Source of the DNA: Bolinopsis microptera
Taxonomy: Eukaryota; Ctenophora; Tentaculata; Lobata; Bolinopsidae
DNA: 60,000 nucleotides
Reading direction: 5' to 3'
Assembly (NCBI RefSeq): GCF_026151205.1
Contig: NC_087077.1
Span: forward strand, 17,842,475 to 17,902,474
The translations under genes were made by a program, and so were the position numbers. The notes beneath the pieces are model-generated. The model made no database searches. It saw only the letters and a program-made list of their open reading frames with translations, and was not told where the DNA came from. Of this stretch, positions 24,351 to 34,600 are shown one piece after another; within the stretch, counting starts at the first letter, position 1; every line of letters begins with the position of its first letter.

Positions 24351-25883
24351 ACAGGTGAGTTTTTAATAAATAATAATATCGGTGACAACCCCATCGATGA
24401 AGCAGCAGTTGCTTATTCCGTAGCTGCTGACTCCATTTCTGGAAATGCTACCCTCCATGAATCCCTTCAGGCTATTCAAAATAGCATTCTTAAGAGAGAT
24501 AAGGTGCACAATGACACTCTCAAATCAATCAGTGGCCAGCTTAACACCCTGACTCTCTCCATTGATCAGTACATGAAACCATCAGATATGTCAACTCCAG
24601 ATGTACCACGTAACACTGCATTTCCTTCTTTCCCAATAGGCCTTCCTAATATCAATATCGAAAAACCAGATCCTAAGATTGACTTACAAGTCTTACATAC
24701 AGTGCAAAATCCTATAAACACCTCCATTGGTCACATTGAGTCATTCACACCAGATTTTGTTGCCCAAGAACTTTCGGATAAACTCACTGAATACCTTGAC
24801 ACATTTAGTGAACAGTTTGATGCAAACTCAGAAAGAGGACATGGTGTCATAAGCTTTGGGGATGCATACAACTATCCAGGAGCCAAAGCTGCAAAACCTA
24901 TATCCAAAAACATCCCTGAACCCCTAACTGAACTTGTTTCGCTCATCCAGGCCAAATTCCCTGAAAGTGTCATTAATCAGTGTTTAGTGAATCGCTACCT
25001 TGACGAGAAATCAGAGCTGCCGAAGCATTCGGACAACGAAGCCTCACTAATGTTTGATAGTAACATCTTCACTATATCACTAGGCAGTACCTGTGATGTT
25101 CTATTCAGTAAAATCGAAGGATCTGAAACCAAAACTGTATCAGCTACTGGAAAAAGTCTATATGTTATGAGTAAGCAATCTCAGTCTGTTTGGCAACATC
25201 AAATAGATCAATCTCCAACCACACGTGAGAAAAGATATAGTGTTACATTTCGTTATGTTACATCTAACAACGAAAATGCAACAATAATAATAGGAGACTC
25301 CAACACCAGATTCTTGAAATTCGGTAGTGGGAAAGGACGTTTTGGTCATCGAATGCCAGGGAAAAGGGTAGAATGTTTTACTATTGATATGATTAACCCA
25401 AGTTTGTGTGAAGGTTACAGAAATATTTTTATTCATTGTGGAGTAAATGATATTAAGAAACGGAGCTCAAATATCGAGCAGTGTGCCAGTGATCTCAAGG
25501 TAAAACTTGATGATATATGTCGTAAATGTCCATACTCCAAGGTTACCGTTTCGCCAGTACTACCCACTAAGTTTGGCTGGTTGAACGAGAAAGCATTATA
25601 TTTTAACAAACTTATATTTCAATATGTTGACATGAACCCAAGGGTGGGAACTCTAGATTTTAATGAATTTGTTGGTGAAGATGGTAAACTAGCTGACCAG
25701 TTCGGTCGTTTCAAGGATAAAAGTGATGCCATCCATCTTGGGTCTACTGGTATCTTTAAGTTGTCTAGGCTAATAGTGGATAAAATACAGCGCAATCCAA
25801 TAGATGGGCGCCAATTTAGTGATATTGCTAGGAGTAAAGTTGGGATGTTCAATTCACGTGTTCAAAGAGCTCCGAAACCATGA
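24351..25883 (+). CDS. LINE ORF1: AlkB-like 2OG-Fe(II) dioxygenase fused to SGNH hydrolase
   Basis: The open frame has three parts. First, an N-terminal helical stretch (about 24400-24600, ATLHESLQAIQNSILKRD). Second, an AlkB-type dioxygenase at about 24830-25270: LVNRYLDEKSELPKHSDNEA supplies the HxD iron ligands (His at 25026). SLGSTCDVLF and SLYVMSKQSQSVWQH supply the distal His (about 25197). REKRYSVTFRY supplies the 2-oxoglutarate arginines. Third, an SGNH/GDSL hydrolase at about 25280-25790: IIIGDSN (nucleophile Ser), HCGVND (block III), and DAIHLGSTG (Asp-His). AlkB enzymes demethylate nucleic acids and SGNH proteins hydrolyse esters. CR1-type ORF1 proteins with an esterase are known; the AlkB addition is unusual to me. 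The stop TGA overlaps the ORF2 start. All predicted catalytic residues are present. Confidence 0.87.
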   Translation, partial: TGEFLINNNIGDNPIDEAAVAYSVAADSISGNATLHESLQAIQNSILKRDKVHNDTLKSISGQLNTLTLSIDQYMKPSDMSTPDVPRNTAFPSFPIGLPNINIEKPDPKIDLQVLHTVQNPINTSIGHIESFTPDFVAQELSDKLTEYLDTFSEQFDANSERGHGVISFGDAYNYPGAKAAKPISKNIPEPLTELVSLIQAKFPESVINQCLVNRYLDEKSELPKHSDNEASLMFDSNIFTISLGSTCDVLFSKIEGSETKTVSATGKSLYVMSKQSQSVWQHQIDQSPTTREKRYSVTFRYVTSNNENATIIIGDSNTRFLKFGSGKGRFGHRMPGKRVECFTIDMINPSLCEGYRNIFIHCGVNDIKKRSSNIEQCASDLKVKLDDICRKCPYSKVTVSPVLPTKFGWLNEKALYFNKLIFQYVDMNPRVGTLDFNEFVGEDGKLADQFGRFKDKSDAIHLGSTGIFKLSRLIVDKIQRNPIDGRQFSDIARSKVGMFNSRVQRAPKP

Positions 25884-28800
25884 ATAGAACAAATATATGT
25901 GAGAACTGTATCTGCTGCAGCAAACCTATTCGTGCTGGACACCCATTTATAAATTGCAATAAGTGTGATTGCATCATTCACAAGAGATGTAAAACACAGG
26001 AAAACATTGCCACTTTTAGAGAAAAAACTTACTGCTCAAATTGTATTCAAAATCATGATATAATTCGTTATAATCCATTCTATCAAGCACCTCACTTTTC
26101 AAACAACGAACTACTTGACAATGAACCTCACGACTATATAGACTCAATAGGTACAATCTCAAAAACTCTTGAGAACTGTCAATCATATTCTACTAAAAAC
26201 TTCAACAACCTCATAAAGCAGATTCCTCAAACAACATCAAAGCGCATATTCTCACACTACTTTCGAAATATTGATGGAAATGGTACTAACTTTGACAAAT
26301 TGGCCTTAGAATTAGCCTGCATAGACCACAAATTTTCTGTGATAGGTTTAGCAGAAACAAACATTGATCCCTGTAATAGTCAGCTGTACCAAATTAAAGA
26401 CTATACTTCATGTTACCAAAAACGCTTCGTTTCTAATAAGACACAACAGGTAAAAAGTAAAGGAAGTGGAGTTTCTCTCTACATTCACAACTCCTTTAAC
26501 TTTAGTGTGATTGAAAAGTTATCTGTTTGTACAGAGCAATTTGAGTCCCTATTTGTAACAATAAGTAATGCTCCAGAACCAGTAACAGTTGGAGTTGTAT
26601 ACCGCTCACCAAGCAATCCACTTGCTAACTTCAATGCACAGTATAAAGAAGTTCTTACTGCACTGAAAGGACATAAAGCATACATATTAGGGGACTTCAA
26701 TGTTAACATAACCAATTTATCAGGCCCAGATGAAGATATATTCGAAGAAGTTATTTATAGTCACGGGTTCACGCCCACAATATCCATTCCCACACACCAA
26801 ATGCCCCACTGCTCAAAAACGTGCATTGATAACATACACACTAATGACATTCACCCATCAACTATATCTGGAGTAATTCAGGATAGTGCTTCACATCACC
26901 AGCCCATTTTCTGCCTTCAAGTAATGAATTCTGATAATAGTTCGGAACAGAATAAATCACCTGAAAAAACAACCATTTATTATAACTATAGTAATGCAAA
27001 CCTTGATAAGCTCTGTGAAGAAATTGAAAACGACATAGATACATTTTACCACAGATGTGACTCTTTTGAATCCTTCATGGATCTGTTTCAAGAAAAGATA
27101 GATATATCTTGCAAATTGGCTTCACCAAAAACCACCAAACGAAATAATATAACAAATCCATGGATCACAAACGGCCTTATCAACTCTGTGGAGAAAAAAG
27201 CCAGACTTTATTTTGAATGGAAAAAAACAAAAACATTGTTAATTCCAGATGGGGATCTGGAAAGACATAATGTTTACAAGGACTACTCAAAATATCTTAA
27301 AATTGCCATAAAAACTGCCAAAACCAGGTATTATGCTGAAAAGTTTGAGAAAAATAGCCATAACTCCAAAAAAACCTGGCAAATAATTAACGAGCTTCGT
27401 GGCAAAAAGAAGAATCAGCTAAAAGATGACTTCATTATAGATGGAACTAGAGTAATTTGTAGGCGGACAATTGCAAACAAATTCAATAGTTACTTTACAT
27501 CTTTAGCTAGTAATTTAAATGAGAAGGTTTTGTCCGAGAACCAACTGTCTATCCAACCAATGCAATCATTTGTTGAGTTTATGTCGAAATCAGTCAACAG
27601 TTCAATACATCTAGAAGAAACTCATCCTGAGGAGATTCTTGAAATAATTCAAGAATTCGTTAACGGAAAAGCCAGTGATATACCAATAGCAGTTATCAAG
27701 AAACCGGCTCATCTCTTATCCAACATATTAGCAAATTTGTATAATACATGTATTCAAAAAGGCACGTTCCCATCCATATTCAAAATAGGCAAAGTAACTC
27801 CTATCCATAAAAAAGATAATAAAGAAAATATTGAAAATTATAGACCTGTGTCAATATTGCCAATCTTTGGTAAAATATTTGAAAAAATAATATACAAACG
27901 GCTTTATACCTTTTTCACTGCTAATGACATTCTCAGTAATGAACAATTTGGTTTTCGAAAAGGCCACTCAACCTCACATGCACTCCACAAATCAGTTCAT
28001 TCAATCACAACATCAACATCCAGTGGTAATCATGTTCTAGGAATCTTTATTGACCTAAGCAAAGCTTTTGATACTCTTGACCATGGCATTCTCCTGAGGA
28101 AACTGGAAAATTATGGGGTTAGAGGTCTAGCTCTAGGACTTCTAAAAAGCTATTTATCCGATAGATCACAGTATGTTTCATTTCTCAACACTACATCAGA
28201 GACTATGAATGTAAAATATGGAGTTCCCCAAGGTTCCATACTAGGCCCTCTACTTTTCTTATTATATATGAACGACATAATAAACTGTTACAAAGGCGAT
28301 GAATGCAAATTTGTGCTCTATGCTGATGACACAAATATATTTATCACTGGTCCGTCCAAAGAAGCAACATACTTGAAGGCCAATAAAGTTATTGATTTCG
28401 TATGCAAATTCATGAGAAGTAATCTCTTACATATAAATATGTCTAAATGCTGCTACATACATTTTCTACCTGCATACGAATCTGATGAAACCTGCGCCAG
28501 GGTTAGGCCGTATGCCAATGAACATGACAAATCACAAGGAATATTTATAAATGGACACAAAATTGTCAAGGTTAGCAACACCAAATTTCTTGGTGTAGTA
28601 ATTGATGAAAAACTTAGCTGGGGCCCACATATAGAATATCTAAGAAAAAAAATTAGATCCACTACAGGAGCACTTAACAGGATTAAACATTCAGTTCCAG
28701 GGGAACACTACCAAAAAATATACTCTGCATTATTGGAATCACATCTTGCTTACGGAATAAGTGTTTGGGGCTCAGCTCTCAAAGACCAACCAAACGATAA

Positions 28801-29383
28801 GCTGTTCATAACTCAGAAACGTTGTATAAGAATCCTTTTTGGAGACCTAAATGCATACCTTGACAAACATGCCACTTGTGCACGAGCCAGACCTTATACA
28901 AAACAGAGGTTAGGAGCTGCTTTTTTCGAAAAGGAGCACACCAAGCCCATTTTTAATCGACTAAAATTGCTTACTGTTCAAAACTTGTACAAATACCACT
29001 GTATATCTGAGATATTTCGAATTATGAAATTTCGCACTCCATACTCGTTGTATTGTACTATAGACTCATCAAAACGTGATACAAGCAATGTCATAATCCT
29101 CCCAAGAAAAACCAACACTTTTCTTTATATAGCCTCCAAATTGTGGAATAGCATACATAAACGGATTCTAAATGAGAATGGGGAAATCCTCACTACTTCT
29201 GTATCTTTGGTTAAATTACGCTGTAAAAGTATCATCCTGGGATCTCAATCCATCAACAATGATAACACCTGGACTTACCACAACTTTCACATCGCCCCTC
29301 ACTCAATCACAGACCAAACCATTTCATCACTCACTCACCAAACTGCCGACCCAATATCTATTGAAGTGGCGAAAATTTTCTAG
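25880..29383 (+). CDS. LINE ORF2: PHD finger, AP-like endonuclease, reverse transcriptase
   Basis: 1167 residues, intact. The N-terminus carries a PHD-type C4HC3 zinc finger (CICCSKPIRAGHPFINCNKC ... CIIHKRC ... YCSNC, residues 10-55). The exonuclease-endonuclease-phosphatase domain shows AETNID, YRSP, LGDFNVNI and, at its end, SASHHQPIF. The last catalytic motif is normally SDH, so here Asp is replaced by His. The RT domain shows TPIHKKDN, NYRPVSILP, FGFRKGHST, FIDLSKAFDTLDH, GVPQGSILGPLLF and the catalytic YADD (about 28320). The C-terminal region (WGSALKDQ, RCIRILFG, ASKLWNSI) is typical of the CR1/Jockey group. ORF2 is probably translated by termination-reinitiation from ORF1. Confidence 0.93.
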   Translation: MNRTNICENCICCSKPIRAGHPFINCNKCDCIIHKRCKTQENIATFREKTYCSNCIQNHDIIRYNPFYQAPHFSNNELLDNEPHDYIDSIGTISKTLENCQSYSTKNFNNLIKQIPQTTSKRIFSHYFRNIDGNGTNFDKLALELACIDHKFSVIGLAETNIDPCNSQLYQIKDYTSCYQKRFVSNKTQQVKSKGSGVSLYIHNSFNFSVIEKLSVCTEQFESLFVTISNAPEPVTVGVVYRSPSNPLANFNAQYKEVLTALKGHKAYILGDFNVNITNLSGPDEDIFEEVIYSHGFTPTISIPTHQMPHCSKTCIDNIHTNDIHPSTISGVIQDSASHHQPIFCLQVMNSDNSSEQNKSPEKTTIYYNYSNANLDKLCEEIENDIDTFYHRCDSFESFMDLFQEKIDISCKLASPKTTKRNNITNPWITNGLINSVEKKARLYFEWKKTKTLLIPDGDLERHNVYKDYSKYLKIAIKTAKTRYYAEKFEKNSHNSKKTWQIINELRGKKKNQLKDDFIIDGTRVICRRTIANKFNSYFTSLASNLNEKVLSENQLSIQPMQSFVEFMSKSVNSSIHLEETHPEEILEIIQEFVNGKASDIPIAVIKKPAHLLSNILANLYNTCIQKGTFPSIFKIGKVTPIHKKDNKENIENYRPVSILPIFGKIFEKIIYKRLYTFFTANDILSNEQFGFRKGHSTSHALHKSVHSITTSTSSGNHVLGIFIDLSKAFDTLDHGILLRKLENYGVRGLALGLLKSYLSDRSQYVSFLNTTSETMNVKYGVPQGSILGPLLFLLYMNDIINCYKGDECKFVLYADDTNIFITGPSKEATYLKANKVIDFVCKFMRSNLLHINMSKCCYIHFLPAYESDETCARVRPYANEHDKSQGIFINGHKIVKVSNTKFLGVVIDEKLSWGPHIEYLRKKIRSTTGALNRIKHSVPGEHYQKIYSALLESHLAYGISVWGSALKDQPNDKLFITQKRCIRILFGDLNAYLDKHATCARARPYTKQRLGAAFFEKEHTKPIFNRLKLLTVQNLYKYHCISEIFRIMKFRTPYSLYCTIDSSKRDTSNVIILPRKTNTFLYIASKLWNSIHKRILNENGEILTTSVSLVKLRCKSIILGSQSINNDNTWTYHNFHIAPHSITDQTISSLTHQTADPISIEVAKIF

Positions 29384-29866
29384 ACAAATGATATTTCGAT
29401 ATTATTGCTGCAGCAGATACAAATACCAACATTATTATATTCCCAAACGTTTGAACCTTTAAATTAACTAGGAAAGTCAATCCTCAACTTGACTTTTACT
29501 GTTTTAAACAGATATGATGATATTAACTTAATTTATTATTATTATTATTATTTTTTTTTTTACATACTCCTTCTTAGTGTGGTGACTTGGGGTCCATAAA
29601 TATAACAATACAAGCTGATAAACCAAAAAGAACAACTGGGGTAGGTAGGTAGCCCTGGTGGGTGCGTAAACTTTACGGTCTGCTCTCTCCAAGATCAGCC
29701 TGCTTCTCCATTTTACCGTGAAGCCTAATTTCTAGTTTTTATAAAATATACAATGCAAGTGCAGGTTTACTAATCTTAATCTACTTAACAACTCAATAGC
29801 CCAAGTCACCATACCCGTAGTATATTCCATGGTAATAGAAGAGCTTTAAAGTTTTTCAAATTGTTG
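29384..29866. other. Meeting point of two LINE 3' ends
   Basis: The plus-strand LINE ends before a TTATTATTATT/poly-T block at 29530-29571. The minus-strand LINE remnant reads through 29866-29572 as 3' UTR and ends at the same block (poly-A plus TAA repeats in its own orientation). No gene is present. Confidence 0.55.
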
Positions 29867-30142
29867 CTATAATTGATTTAAATAAAAATTTGTTGTTTTC
29901 TTGAAAATTTGTTGTTTTCTTGAATGTTTTGAACAGATCAACATCAGAACAAGTCTTAATTTCAATTGGTAGTTGGTTCCAGATTTTCGGAGCAACAGTC
30001 TGAAACGCTCTTGGGTGCGATCTTGTAGATCCAACAGGTAGGTGTAAGGAGGAAGTTCTTCTGCTACTCGAACTAACAAATGTTACTAGATCACACAGAT
30101 ATGCAGGAGCAACACCATTGACTGCTTTTTTTTATGAAAATC

Positions 30143-31348
30143 TTTTCAAAATTTACATACAATATAACATGTGGCGCAAAATAAAAACAAAATATAACTG
30201 ATTGCGATCTCTAAAGGACAGATGTATGTAAATTTCAAAGGGAAACCAGAACGCAGTAAAATTGTAGTCGAAACCACACCGCACAAGCCTAGTCCCTGGT
30301 AAATGAAAATCAATCAAATAATATGTTGATAAAAAATCATATCCCATCAGTCCTTCTCGGAGCTTACGATCTTATTGTTCCTTATAACATGAACTCGCTG
30401 AGGCTCCAATTCCCGTTTCTGCTTAACTTCAAGAACTAACTTCCTGAAGGCAGCTCTCTGCTCGGCTGATCGGTCGGGGCTGATGTACACTGAGTCATAC
30501 CCCTCCACTTCTCTTAGTTTTCTCGCTTTGCTCAACACTTGCCGCACATGATCTGAGCCGCTGAGAGTGAACTTGATAGGTTTAACGGCTGGTCCTCCAT
30601 CTGATACAGTTCTCCCCATCCTACAGCAAGAAACGATTCGAGGTTTCTCATCTATGTTTTCTAGTACCTCAAGCACTCTCTTTTCCAGGATTTCTTCACT
30701 CTTTTCTGGTAGACCGTAGATGACCAGATTTTGACTACGATCCTCTTCCTCGGAGGCACGTTTCAGAGCAGCTTTCATTTTCTTAGGCGCTAGCGCCTTG
30801 CTGCATGAATTCTTCACAACTGACGACCAGGCTTTGAGTTCGCTTTTCACTGTCGTCTGAACAGAGGTCAAATCTTCACTTTTCTTCTCAAGCAATTGTC
30901 CTTGCAGTTTAATCACAGTGTTCTGATCTGCAATCTTTTCGTCCTTCAGTTGGTCGATTTCATCTTGTAGTTTGGTGGCTGAAAACAACAGCGGTGAACA
31001 ATAACTGTCGAGAATGTCGATAAAAGTTTCCATCCAATCACACAGCGTAGCCTTGGTGATCTGAGGCTTGTTGAGCGTTTCTTTACGTAACACATTGGAT
31101 TTCTGAACACCTGCCGCTTGACGCATATCGTTGAGTAGCATAATCTGAGCACCCAAAATCTGTTCAGCATACATTGATCTGAATTTGAGTGTAGAGTAAT
31201 TCAACGCTATTTCATTGTCAAGATTCTCCAAGTATTTGTTAACCATGATGTACAATGTACACGCAGGGCCAGTTTAATATACACGAGTATATTATCTGCT
31301 ACACAGTGAGAGCTGTTTAAACCGACGCAAAAGCAATTAACTGATAAG
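30143..31348 (-). mobile_element. ORF1-only LINE-type element nested in the LINE remnant
   Basis: The insert interrupts the RT remnant. The heptamer GAAAATC occurs at both borders (30136-30142, 31349-31355), and an A8 run in minus orientation (30126-30133) lies at the 3' side. It carries a short leader, an intact ORF1 and about 200 bp of trailer, but no RT. Confidence 0.6.
30347..31255 (-). CDS. LINE ORF1 protein (coiled coil plus RRM-like domain)
   Basis: 302 residues, intact. The start is MYIMVNKYLENL, with an alternative Met four codons in. Residues about 105-150 are heptad-rich (KLQDEIDQLKDEKIADQN). RSQNLVIYGLPEKSEE opens an RRM-like domain, with RIVSCCRMGR, PIKFTLSGSDHVRQVL and the C-terminal YISPDRSAEQRAAFRKLV. 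This layout is that of transposase_22-type LINE ORF1 proteins, which bind RNA and act as nucleic-acid chaperones. No ORF2 accompanies it, so mobility would need a partner LINE. Confidence 0.8.
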   Translation of the reverse strand: MYIMVNKYLENLDNEIALNYSTLKFRSMYAEQILGAQIMLLNDMRQAAGVQKSNVLRKETLNKPQITKATLCDWMETFIDILDSYCSPLLFSATKLQDEIDQLKDEKIADQNTVIKLQGQLLEKKSEDLTSVQTTVKSELKAWSSVVKNSCSKALAPKKMKAALKRASEEEDRSQNLVIYGLPEKSEEILEKRVLEVLENIDEKPRIVSCCRMGRTVSDGGPAVKPIKFTLSGSDHVRQVLSKARKLREVEGYDSVYISPDRSAEQRAAFRKLVLEVKQKRELEPQRVHVIRNNKIVSSEKD

Positions 31349-31673: not shown

Positions 31674-34600
31674 ATGGCAGCCATCAAACAATTGAACCCA
31701 AAAGCTGAAGTAGCCAGAGCAGCCCAGGCTCTTGACTTGAACATCAGTGGTAAGTTCTTTACTAACTTCATTCTGCATTCTATTTAGCCTTTAAAGCTTG
31801 ATAAAATCATGATTCAATATTATTGTTTTCAAATAATTATTACTCAGTTAGTCACCATCTTTCAACCTGTTTTATCTTTTCAGCTGCTATGGGTTTACAA
31901 GATGTTCTTCGTACTAACCTTGGACCAAAGGGTACAATGAAGATGCTTGTTGGAGGTGCTGGTGACATTAAAATCACTAAGGATGGAAATGTACTCCTGC
32001 ATGAGATGCAGATTCAGCATCCTACTGCCTCCCTTATTGCCAGAGTGGCTACCGCCCAGGTAGATTTACTCAACAAAGACATAATTCATTTTAAAAACAT
32101 TAAATCTGAATTAGAATTTAATTACACTATATGTTTCCAGCATTTTGAAGTGTCTAAATAAGACGTTTTCCAATAAATGAAAGAAAGAAAATATAACTAA
32201 TTATCAGTATTTTTAACACTTTCATCCTTTCCCTCAGGACGATATCACTGGAGACGGAACCACTTCAAATGTGCTCATCATCGGAGAGCTCCTGAAGCAA
32301 GCAAATGTTTACATCACAGATGGACTTCACCCTCGTGTTGCTGCAGAAGGTTTCGATCTTGCAAAGAAGAAGGCTCTTAAAGTGTTGGATGCAATGTCTG
32401 TGAAGAAGTGTGAAAGAGATGATCTTATCAATGTTGCCAGAACTTCTCTCCGAACTAAAGTATGTAGTTATACACTTTTCCTTTTTTCAATTAATTTTGG
32501 TTGCAAAACTGATGATGTTTTGACATCATCAGTTTTTGCTGTGCAGCTTAAGATTGAACGTTAATGCGGAATTTTACAATAACATCCCAATTTTACAATC
32601 ACAAGCCAATGTTCACCTTGAAAAGAGGAAATTTTCGTGTTTTAATAAAGTTTAACACCAGGTGAAGAACACAGTGGCAGATCTGCTGACAGAGATCATC
32701 GTGGACGCTGTTCTTGCCATCAAGAAGGAGGGTGAACCCTTAGATCTTCACATGGTCGAGGTAAATTAGCATATAAGTTGGGGTCAAGGAAAAATGAATT
32801 TGCTGTTACATGATGGTCTTTTCTTTAACCCTAGAAAATCTAGCAATACCAGTGTAATAAAAAACCCTTTTTGGGCGAATGAGAATTATTAAGCTAGCTT
32901 ATTTGAATTTTAACCTGTTTGAAAAGTCATTATATTAATGATGTTATAATTGTGACTGAAAAAAAACCTGCTCAGATCATGTCCATGGAGCACAAGACCG
33001 AGATGGACACCAAACTTATCAAGGGACTGGTAATGGACCACGGAGCACGACACCCAGACATGCCCAAGAAAGTGACCGATGCGTTCATCCTGACCTGTAA
33101 CGTTAGTTTGGAGTACGAGAAGAGTGAGGTTAACTCCGGATTCTTCTACAAGTCTGCAGATGAGCGGGAGAAGTTGGTGAAAGCTGAGCGGGCTTTCTGT
33201 GACGACAAAGTACAACAGGTAGAGTGCATGTCATGTAACTTAAGATGTCTTGTCGACTGTTTATTGCGTTGATAAAAGGCCGACTCTAAGTCTGAAAACT
33301 TGGTCAGAAACTTATTGAAATTTTAAGATCTAAGAAAAATGTAGATAACTTCAAATGATTGTTCTAACATTGATGTATTTCAGATTATCGACCTGAAGAG
33401 AGAATTAGTAGGAGACTCAGACAAAGGATTTGTCGTAGTAAACCAGAAAGGAGTGGACCCCAACTCCCTCGACGCTCTCGCACGTGAAGGTATCGTCGCT
33501 CTCCGACGTGCCAAACGCAGGAACATGGAACGTATCGTCCTTGCATGTGGTGGCACTGCTGTTAACTGTTTTGATGAACTCAAACCAGAACAACTCGGAC
33601 ACGCCGGACTCTTCTACGAGCACGTGCTTGGAGATGACAAATTCTCCTTCATCGAGGAGTGTGACAACCCCCAGTCAGTCACCATTCTCATTAAGGGACC
33701 CAACAAACACACCATCACTCAGATAAAGGATGCAGTCAGGGACGGCTTGAGGGCTGTTAAGAACGCTATCGAGGATCAGATGGTCGTGCCTGGTGCTGGA
33801 GCCTTCGAAATCGCTATCTATCAGGTTTGGCATTAATTTTATTACAATGGTTCTAACTTTACATCTCTCCATTTTTTACTTCAACCTTTTTTGTACTTTA
33901 CTGTTGCGAAACATCTGAAGATTATACATTTTTACACTCTGTTTGGTTAGGCTCTGCAAGAATACAAGAACGAAGTACGAGGTAAACAGAGATTGGGAGT
34001 ACAAGCCTACGCTGATGCCATGCTCATCATCCCCAAGTGCCTGGCACAAAATGGCGGTCATGATGCTCAGGAGTGTCTTGTAAAAATGCTCCAGGAGTAC
34101 AAGGGAGTCGACAAATGTGTAAGTTGGATTTGGCGATCGTTCAAATATTACCTATGCCTCTGCCCTCCACAAGACACTTAAATCGTAGCTGCTGTGTAAA
34201 AATTACATTAGTGATTAGGGTAGTAGGGTACACTTTTTTGCCCTCCCCGACATTAAGTAAGTAAGTAATGGTAAACTGTTCCCACCCCAGGTCGGATTGG
34301 ATTTGGAGACAGGAGAAGCAATGTACCCTGCCGAGGCTGGTATCTGGGACAACTACTGTGTCAAGAAACAACTTCTCAACTCCGCCACTGTTATCTCCTC
34401 TAATCTTCTTATCGTTGATGAGGTGAGCTATGTTGTTGAATTCTGTTCGTTTGATGTCATTTAGTGTTCAACCAGAAGTCTTTAAGTTGGAGATGATGGG
34501 AGTTACCAACAAAAATAACTTGGTTCAAGCCTTTTTTGGTATAAAAAACTCCCGTGCACACTGCACACTGCACATGGTAATTATTATATGCATTGTATTA

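Follow-up and report, generated by a model that had tools for sequence, protein, structure and literature searches.

The closest described systems each hold one half of the protein analyzed here. In the available text on ZfL2-1, whose ORF1 is of type IV, the ORF1 protein (ORF1p) contains an SGNH esterase with its catalytic residues and is encoded upstream of an endonuclease and reverse transcriptase (EN-RT) ORF2 (PMC3905857, PMC4120745). This protein is described there as having hydrolytic activity and as binding negatively charged phospholipids, and the esterase domain as being present in CR1, RTEX and Penelope-like elements (PMC3905857). In the Jockey-superfamily set treated in the accessible part of PMC4120745, esterase ORF1s are confined to vertebrate L2 and CR1 groups. 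AlkB, in turn, is described as a retroelement-encoded demethylase with in vitro activity in orchid Ty3/Gypsy (PMC9289625), and as a part of plant Flexiviridae replicases, i.e., of the protein of an RNA-copying parasite, with the HxD, H and RxxxxxR motifs (PMC544882). Here, we describe LINEs of a ctenophore in which ORF1 fuses an AlkB-type dioxygenase to an SGNH esterase. The AlkB part is homologous to known AlkB proteins, retains iron, 2-oxoglutarate (2OG) and pocket residues near-universally, evolves under purifying selection and recurs in several LINE types and in Helitrons.

The window, a stretch of 60,000 nucleotides of Bolinopsis microptera DNA, contains one copy of such a LINE (Table 1). 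The assignment to LINEs is supported by an ORF2 with endonuclease and reverse transcriptase, by dispersed copies and by copies truncated at the 5' end; the reverse transcriptase match is strong, and the endonuclease matches two Pfam families with E-values of 1.4e-4 and 0.0042, both below their cut-offs. Alignment with 11 further copies (L009-L019) bounds the element from 24377 to near 29924, and the initial 26 bases of the interval 24351-25883, in which the first-pass annotation had placed the fused ORF1, are flank outside the element. In the genome (G000, 264.65 Mb), in which our copy counts are lower bounds, nearly this whole interval, from base 27 or 58 onward, recurs at ten other places with a DNA identity of 98-99% and at one more with 88%, and fragments and distant relatives occur besides. 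Over the element, 10 of the 11 aligned copies are ∼99% identical to the window copy and L019 is 89% identical. Eight copies have ∼570 bp of extra 5' sequence with a common start point after unrelated flanks, and the window diverges from them upstream of 24377; L009 likewise ends near the equivalent point, and L018 is broken. The window copy is 5'-truncated. ORF1 of the full-length copies starts 158 codons upstream of the window remnant. Both frames are open in 4 of the 11 other copies (L010, L012, L013 and L014, by frame listing), with an ORF1 of 657 aa counted from the first ATG and an ORF2 of 1167 to 1169 in intact copies. The first-pass annotation had called the whole frame intact and had taken this to imply selection or recency. 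Copy alignment and frames led us to reject the completeness of the reported copy, which lacks the upstream ∼570 bp with the start codon and N-terminal part of ORF1; the reasoning fails for this truncated copy and holds for its full-length sisters, and the ∼99% identity among copies points to recent activity of the LINE family.

Table 1. Features of the LINE copy and related loci (window positions unless a contig or locus is named)
Feature	Position	Strand	Evidence
LINE copy, 5'-truncated (∼570 bp absent compared with full-length copies)	24377..29924	+	Copy alignment: 8 copies extend upstream to a common 5' end; 3' end common
ORF1 remnant, open up to the stop, without start codon and first ∼158 codons	24378..25883	+	Frames of sister copies
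AlkB-type 2OG-Fe(II) dioxygenase domain	24771..25277 (Pfam match 24861-25253)	+	Pfam, structure-profile matches
HSDNE: iron ligands His (25026-25028) and Asp; Glu (25038-25040) aligned to ALKBH2/3 Glu	25026..25040	+	Alignments
Distal iron-ligand His	25197..25199	+	Alignments
RYSVTFR, the RxxxxxR motif (2OG and substrate arginines)	25233..25253	+	Alignments; residue roles as in the available text of PMC544882
SGNH esterase domain, LINE ORF1 (type IV) kind	25275..25829	+	Pfam, alignment, profile search
Catalytic Ser of GDSN	25299..25301	+	Ser in 118/118 ungapped rows (alignment of 121)
Asn of GVND block	25446..25448	+	Asn in 114/115 ungapped rows (alignment of 121)
Catalytic His of DAIHLG block	25734..25736	+	His in 113/114 ungapped rows (alignment of 121)
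ATGA: ORF2 start (ATG at 25880) overlapping ORF1 stop (TGA, 25881-25883)	25880..25883	+	Sequence
ORF2, 1167 aa, open	25880..29383	+	Cys/His-rich N-terminus (by eye), endonuclease, reverse transcriptase
Reverse transcriptase domain RVT_1	27803..28603	+	Pfam E 9.6e-40
3' tail, two ∼19-20 bp units, no poly(A)	29886..29924	+	Unit number differs among copies
Loci with ORF2 98% and ORF1 52% identical	G000 C19:56576-61881, C6:20485738-20491043, C9:10640587-10645529		
Helitron frame with AlkB and Helitron_like_N	L029:3383-9901 (G000 C10:16871000-16880900)		Domains read directly
Helitron frames with AlkB and Helitron_like_N	C9:15868177, C3:14441692, C12:2469580, C12:8338315, C9:11092850		Matching frame lengths

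The short tandem-repeat tail fits the habit of CR1 and L2 elements, a clade to which the LINE may belong. A scan of the element against Rfam gave no match. L016 and L019, both on contig C10, have ∼2.9 kb of 5' sequence and flank in common at 92%, with one copy decayed to 89%, and represent either a segmental duplication taking in the element or an assembly effect. Elsewhere in the window, a 302-aa open frame adjoining the element on the minus strand (30350-31255) matches no Pfam family above cut-off (best, a coiled-coil region, E = 0.085) and is possibly the ORF1 of another element, and 33453-33836 on the plus strand holds a piece of a TCP-1/cpn60 chaperonin gene (E = 1.3e-40), presumably a host exon.

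Several lines of evidence identify the upstream half of ORF1 as an AlkB-family domain. First, ORF1 matches PF13532 (2OG-FeII_Oxy_2) with E = 2.6e-16 and 60.9 bits against a cut-off of 31.2. Second, the HxD...H ligands and RxxxxxR follow each other in the order of the family, with the HxD, the distal His and RYSVTFR at the places within 24351-25883 where they had first been read. Third, a single-sequence search of solved structures found ALKBH3 and ALKBH2 (best E = 2.9e-4). A PHROGs search gave nothing beyond "alkylated DNA repair". The Pfam E-value and the residue conservation in relatives described below led us to reject a chance motif match. When an AlkB-only profile of seven LINE ORF1s was ranked against solved structures, ALKBH3 (4e-25, 91.6 bits) and ALKBH2 (2e-23, 86.3 bits) came first, followed by ALKBH8 (6e-12, 48.7 bits), E. 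coli AlkB (1e-8, 37.9 bits), a "DNA N6-methyl adenine demethylase" (1.3e-5, 28.2 bits) and ALKBH5 (1.3e-4, 24.9 bits). By profile, the LINE AlkB thus appears to be ALKBH2/3-like and not ALKBH5-like. The Tyr-x-Tyr and Glu of the element align with the Tyr-x-Phe and Glu of ALKBH2, HxDxE being common to ALKBH2/3, and we take the aligned Tyr and Glu of ALKBH2/3 to line the pocket that holds m1A and m3C bases. The element motif is RxSxTxR as opposed to RxNLTFR in three AlkB exons of the same genome, which we regard as putative host genes because the piece read holds no fusion partner. The Ser is not element-specific: a rough pattern finds the motif in 118 of the 120 best single-domain relatives, some of which are element fragments, with Ser in 88 and Asn in 29.

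The downstream half, with GDSN, GVND and DAIHLG present in the same frame as initially annotated, is an SGNH esterase whose homology comes from the family profile, as the single sequence stays below the Pfam cut-off. Specifically, the window ORF1 alone matches Lipase_GDSL_2 with E = 0.01 and 16.8 bits, below the cut-off of 32.9; the Pfam comparison proposed in the first-pass annotation therefore bore out AlkB and, for a single sequence, not the esterase. A 65-row ORF1 profile (the window ORF1 and 64 relatives), in which 44 of the 65 rows match Lipase_GDSL_2 at E ≤ 0.01, reached the solved structure 4c1b with E = 6.5e-5 plus other SGNH hydrolases; 4c1b is the esterase of ZfL2-1 ORF1p (PMC3905857). 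Together with the PF13532 match, this upholds the annotated combination of AlkB and SGNH in one LINE ORF1. In the 121-row alignment, the Gly of the SGNH blocks is kept in 117 of 118 ungapped rows, next to the Ser, Asn and His of Table 1. In the ORF1s of L022, L037, L038 and L039, GVNN stands in place of GVND, the catalytic Asn being kept and the following Asp lost.

The AlkB region and its residues are kept in relatives. A first search with the window ORF1, in which only the 7995 candidates that had the most words in common with it were scored, gave 120 proteins, all 120 with PF13532 in their precomputed annotation. Once gaps are set aside, every row of the alignment of these 120 proteins and ORF1 (121 rows) has the iron ligands, the second Arg and the Ser of RxSxTxR, and 119 of 120 have the first Arg. 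A second search, from the alignment with other LINE types added, yielded 105 proteins, of which the first had already recovered one. The combined set of 224 includes P0227, whose other annotated domains suggest a non-LINE protein, and 223 of the 224 proteins align to the AlkB profile. Among the aligned residues (lower denominators reflect gaps), the iron ligands are His in 223/223, Asp in 223/223 and distal His in 222/222; the arginines are kept in 220/221 (first) and 221/221 (second), and the pocket residues in 218/218 (Tyr) and 222/223 (Glu of HxDxE). Because the searches favor domain-bearing proteins, these counts measure residue retention and not the frequency of AlkB among LINEs. Eight of the 224 relatives carry an organism name, which is Mnemiopsis leidyi throughout (P0019, P0051, P0080, P0102, P0162, P0165, P0218 and P0226).

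Two of the follow-ups suggested in the first-pass annotation, a search for further copies and dN/dS over the AlkB part, came out in its favor: other copies and distant families retain the region, and dN/dS is low. We used NG86 counting on nine ORF1s (one of the window family, four of family B and four others), which form 36 pairs sharing branches. In the ten least saturated pairs (AlkB dS 0.2-1.0), dN/dS lies at 0.13-0.22 in AlkB, at 0.08-0.14 in SGNH and at 0.16-0.22 in the N-terminal part. These ranges were taken without the remaining 26 pairs. In the 8 pairs with the window family (L012), silent sites are saturated (dS not estimable or >3) and ∼30% of AlkB replacement sites differ; the 6 pairs within family B, with few changes, give 0-0.29 for AlkB and 0.37-0.73 for the N-terminal part; and the 12 pairs with AlkB dS >1 give an AlkB dN/dS of 0.06-0.17. 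As judged from codon changes, these ratios show that the AlkB part of ORF1 is under purifying selection.

ORF1 matches 67 stretches of the genome, some of which are parts of one copy and which include families 52% identical in protein, and PF13532 has at least 151 matches there (150 of 587 candidates scored); among the PF13532 matches listed, five lie in frames of 142 to 332 codons and the others in open frames of at least 350 codons. Fourteen PF13532 places were read in detail. Six of them (L030-L035) are LINE ORF1s in which AlkB precedes SGNH, and an EN-RT frame comes after each. Seven short pieces (L043-L049) comprise three that resemble host genes and four that resemble LINE or Helitron fragments. 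Pfam scans covered the AlkB frames of L029, L030, L031, L032, L034 and L035 and the ORF2s of L030, L032, L034 and L035 (piece L042), and the rest were read by motif and alignment; the SGNH part of L034 is visible in the alignment with no Pfam call. In the reverse transcriptase tree, the LINE types that bear AlkB have strongly different reverse transcriptases. L035 with L042 combines a very different reverse transcriptase with an ORF1 in which AlkB is followed by a long linker with a weak trimerisation-domain match and then by SGNH.

ORF1 has also moved between LINE families. Three loci combine an ORF2 that shares 98% identity with that of the window family and, 33 bp 5' of it, an ORF1 that shares just 52%; a near-identical ORF2 behind a diverged ORF1 indicates that ORF1 was swapped between families, and recently. 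L039, the one foreign ORF1 of the three that was read, retains AlkB and SGNH. The pairing of ORF1 and ORF2 was typed for 54 of 67 ORF1 rows and 39 of 43 ORF2 rows, the rows left out including fragments and second pieces of copies. An ORF1 row adjoins 27 of the 39 typed ORF2 rows: besides the three mixed loci, 11 further ORF2s of the window family adjoin a window-family ORF1, and 13 ORF2 rows outside the window family adjoin another ORF1. Separately, L031 and L033 have nearly identical ORF2s (reverse transcriptase branch lengths 0.01 and 0) and clearly different ORF1s, and may represent another such exchange. Between L036 and L037, silent divergence is ∼1.3 in AlkB and 0.37 in SGNH; the mosaic ORF1s of L036, L037, L038 and L039 suggest recombination within ORF1. 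Reticulate ORF1 evolution is described for CR1 and L2 in the available text of PMC4120745.

The domain pair is found in DNA transposons as well. By Pfam, the Helitron frame of L029 encodes SGNH, then AlkB, then the Helitron replicase domain Helitron_like_N, the reverse of the AlkB-SGNH order of the LINEs. Across six loci (Table 1), AlkB and Helitron_like_N lie in frames of equal length on one strand, ∼3.6 to 4.5 kb apart as compared by eye, and the frames have 3226, 3321, 3388, 2459, 3366 and 2225 codons. The N-terminal part of the Helitron protein matched no PDB structure at E ≤ 0.01. The AlkB tree of 45 rows has long branches at play; 27 of its rows cluster with support of 98/93, away from the host and bacterial AlkBs chosen, and comprise most LINE AlkBs, the Helitron AlkB and a small number of short proteins. 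The L035-type AlkB is placed with host-type AlkBs (92/87 in this tree and 98/92 in another) and is possibly an independent gain; AU tests rejected neither a single clade of all LINE AlkBs (p-AU 0.174) nor one of LINE and Helitron AlkBs (p-AU 0.176), and gave p-AU 0.418 for LINE AlkBs without L035 and the Helitron.

We suggest that the AlkB of ORF1p is probably a working Fe(II)/2-oxoglutarate demethylase that acts on m1A and m3C in the element's own RNA or single-stranded cDNA; its catalysis, its substrate and its self-targeting are what we infer from the data above. LINE reverse transcription produces single-stranded cDNA from RNA, and RNA and single-stranded DNA are the substrate forms of ALKBH3-like enzymes. 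By analogy with known ORF1ps, ORF1p would most likely sit on the element RNA as the LINE particle protein. Following the proposal made for ZfL2-1, the esterase half would tie this particle to lipids; the AlkB half would strip methyl groups of the ALKBH2/3 kind from the RNA or cDNA; their removal would unblock the reverse transcriptase or erase a host mark. We count the RxSxTxR of the elements, as against RxNxTxR in the three host enzymes, against this proposal. In addition, ZfL2-1 ORF1p is described as non-essential in those cells in which it was tested (PMC3905857), and ORF1 as a whole may be dispensable. Helitrons are described as transposing one strand through a circular double-stranded intermediate, which makes a single-strand substrate shared with LINEs a guess (PMC6431247).

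A different, unlikely reading is that AlkB erases m6A, or DNA 6mA, and so shields the transcripts or copies of the element from surveillance by the host. Such an eraser would also account for AlkB in Helitrons, which have mRNA but no RNA genome. Moreover, the sole direct precedent, described in the available text of PMC9289625 for the orchid Ty3/Gypsy AlkB, is in vitro m6A demethylation by a retroelement AlkB, so that the residues by themselves are compatible with an m6A target. The AlkB profile does reach the DNA N6-methyl adenine demethylase and ALKBH5; however, ALKBH5 at 24.9 bits scores far under ALKBH3 and ALKBH2, and the HxDxE Glu that aligns to the ALKBH2/3 Glu is almost always kept. 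A search of the open-access literature for DNA 6-methyladenine in ctenophores gave a Hydra review and nothing on ctenophores. The ALKBH2/3-like rank and the aligned pocket residues seem to fit a demethylase that keeps the template readable better than an m6A eraser.

Some AlkB-family members act on proteins. It is accordingly conceivable, if quite improbable, that the element AlkB modifies a host protein, or that it is a plain nucleic acid-binding fold in place of an RRM, demethylation not being its selected function. Other LINE ORF1s have RNA-binding RRMs (PMC4120745), and esterase-type ORF1ps are described, in the available text, as being without defined RNA-binding domains (PMC3905857); yet pure binding needs no iron or 2OG ligands, which 220-223 of the 221-223 ungapped proteins retain.

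LINEs can capture host gene fragments. Helitrons do so too (PMC6431247), but a functionless chance or hitch-hiking fusion, in which one copy captured a host AlkB fragment, is scarcely credible and was rejected in view of the 67 ORF1 stretches, which include families 52% identical in protein, the Mnemiopsis records, the AlkB dN/dS of 0.13-0.22 and the conserved residues.

Returning to a demethylase of m1A and m3C, the sequence data suggest that these elements bring along an enzyme of their own with which to clean or unmask their genetic material. Helitrons of this genome have AlkB as well, which points to one pressure acting on RNA-copying and DNA-copying elements alike. This raises the question of whether hosts methylate transposon RNA or cDNA strongly enough that elements need a repair enzyme of their own. 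Ctenophores branch very early among animals, and the answer therefore bears on the age of such a host-element conflict. As a tentative generalization, several unlike LINE types and rolling-circle Helitrons of ctenophores may have adopted AlkB, fused to or paired with SGNH, as a standard accessory module because hosts attack or silence single-stranded element nucleic acid by Watson-Crick-face methylation, a hitherto undescribed host defense that the elements would counter with an eraser of their own.

Among known systems, human ALKBH2 and ALKBH3 are the best solved relatives: their iron ligands, arginines, Tyr-x-aromatic and HxDxE align with the element AlkB, but they lie outside mobile elements and have RxNLTFR where the elements have RxSxTxR. 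The AlkB of Flexiviridae, likened here by description and not by sequence, resides in an RNA virus replicase, unlike that of a LINE ORF1 (PMC544882). The orchid Ty3/Gypsy is described as an LTR element with an ALKBH5-like, m6A-active AlkB in an additional ORF (PMC9289625); by contrast, the AlkB described here is fused to an esterase in the ORF1 of a LINE, is ALKBH2/3-like and occurs in many element families. The word oxygenase is absent from the available texts on type IV ORF1 (PMC3905857, PMC4120745), whereas the window ORF1 has an AlkB dioxygenase. Accessory domains common to unlike element classes have parallels in Helitrons and Helentrons with OTU, AP-endonuclease or RPA domains (PMC6431247) and in bdelloid Vesta LTR elements with a GDSL ORF3 (PMC5408684), although the word AlkB is absent from the available texts of both. 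A search of titles and abstract beginnings in the open-access literature found no LINE or Helitron with AlkB; Repbase reports lay outside its scope, and a description may have gone unnoticed. As far as can be told, AlkB in a retroelement and an esterase in a LINE ORF1 are known singly, and their fusion and its spread are new. Judged by the open-access papers searched, no earlier LINE architecture places a nucleic-acid demethylase in its ORF1p, and this one would be the first.
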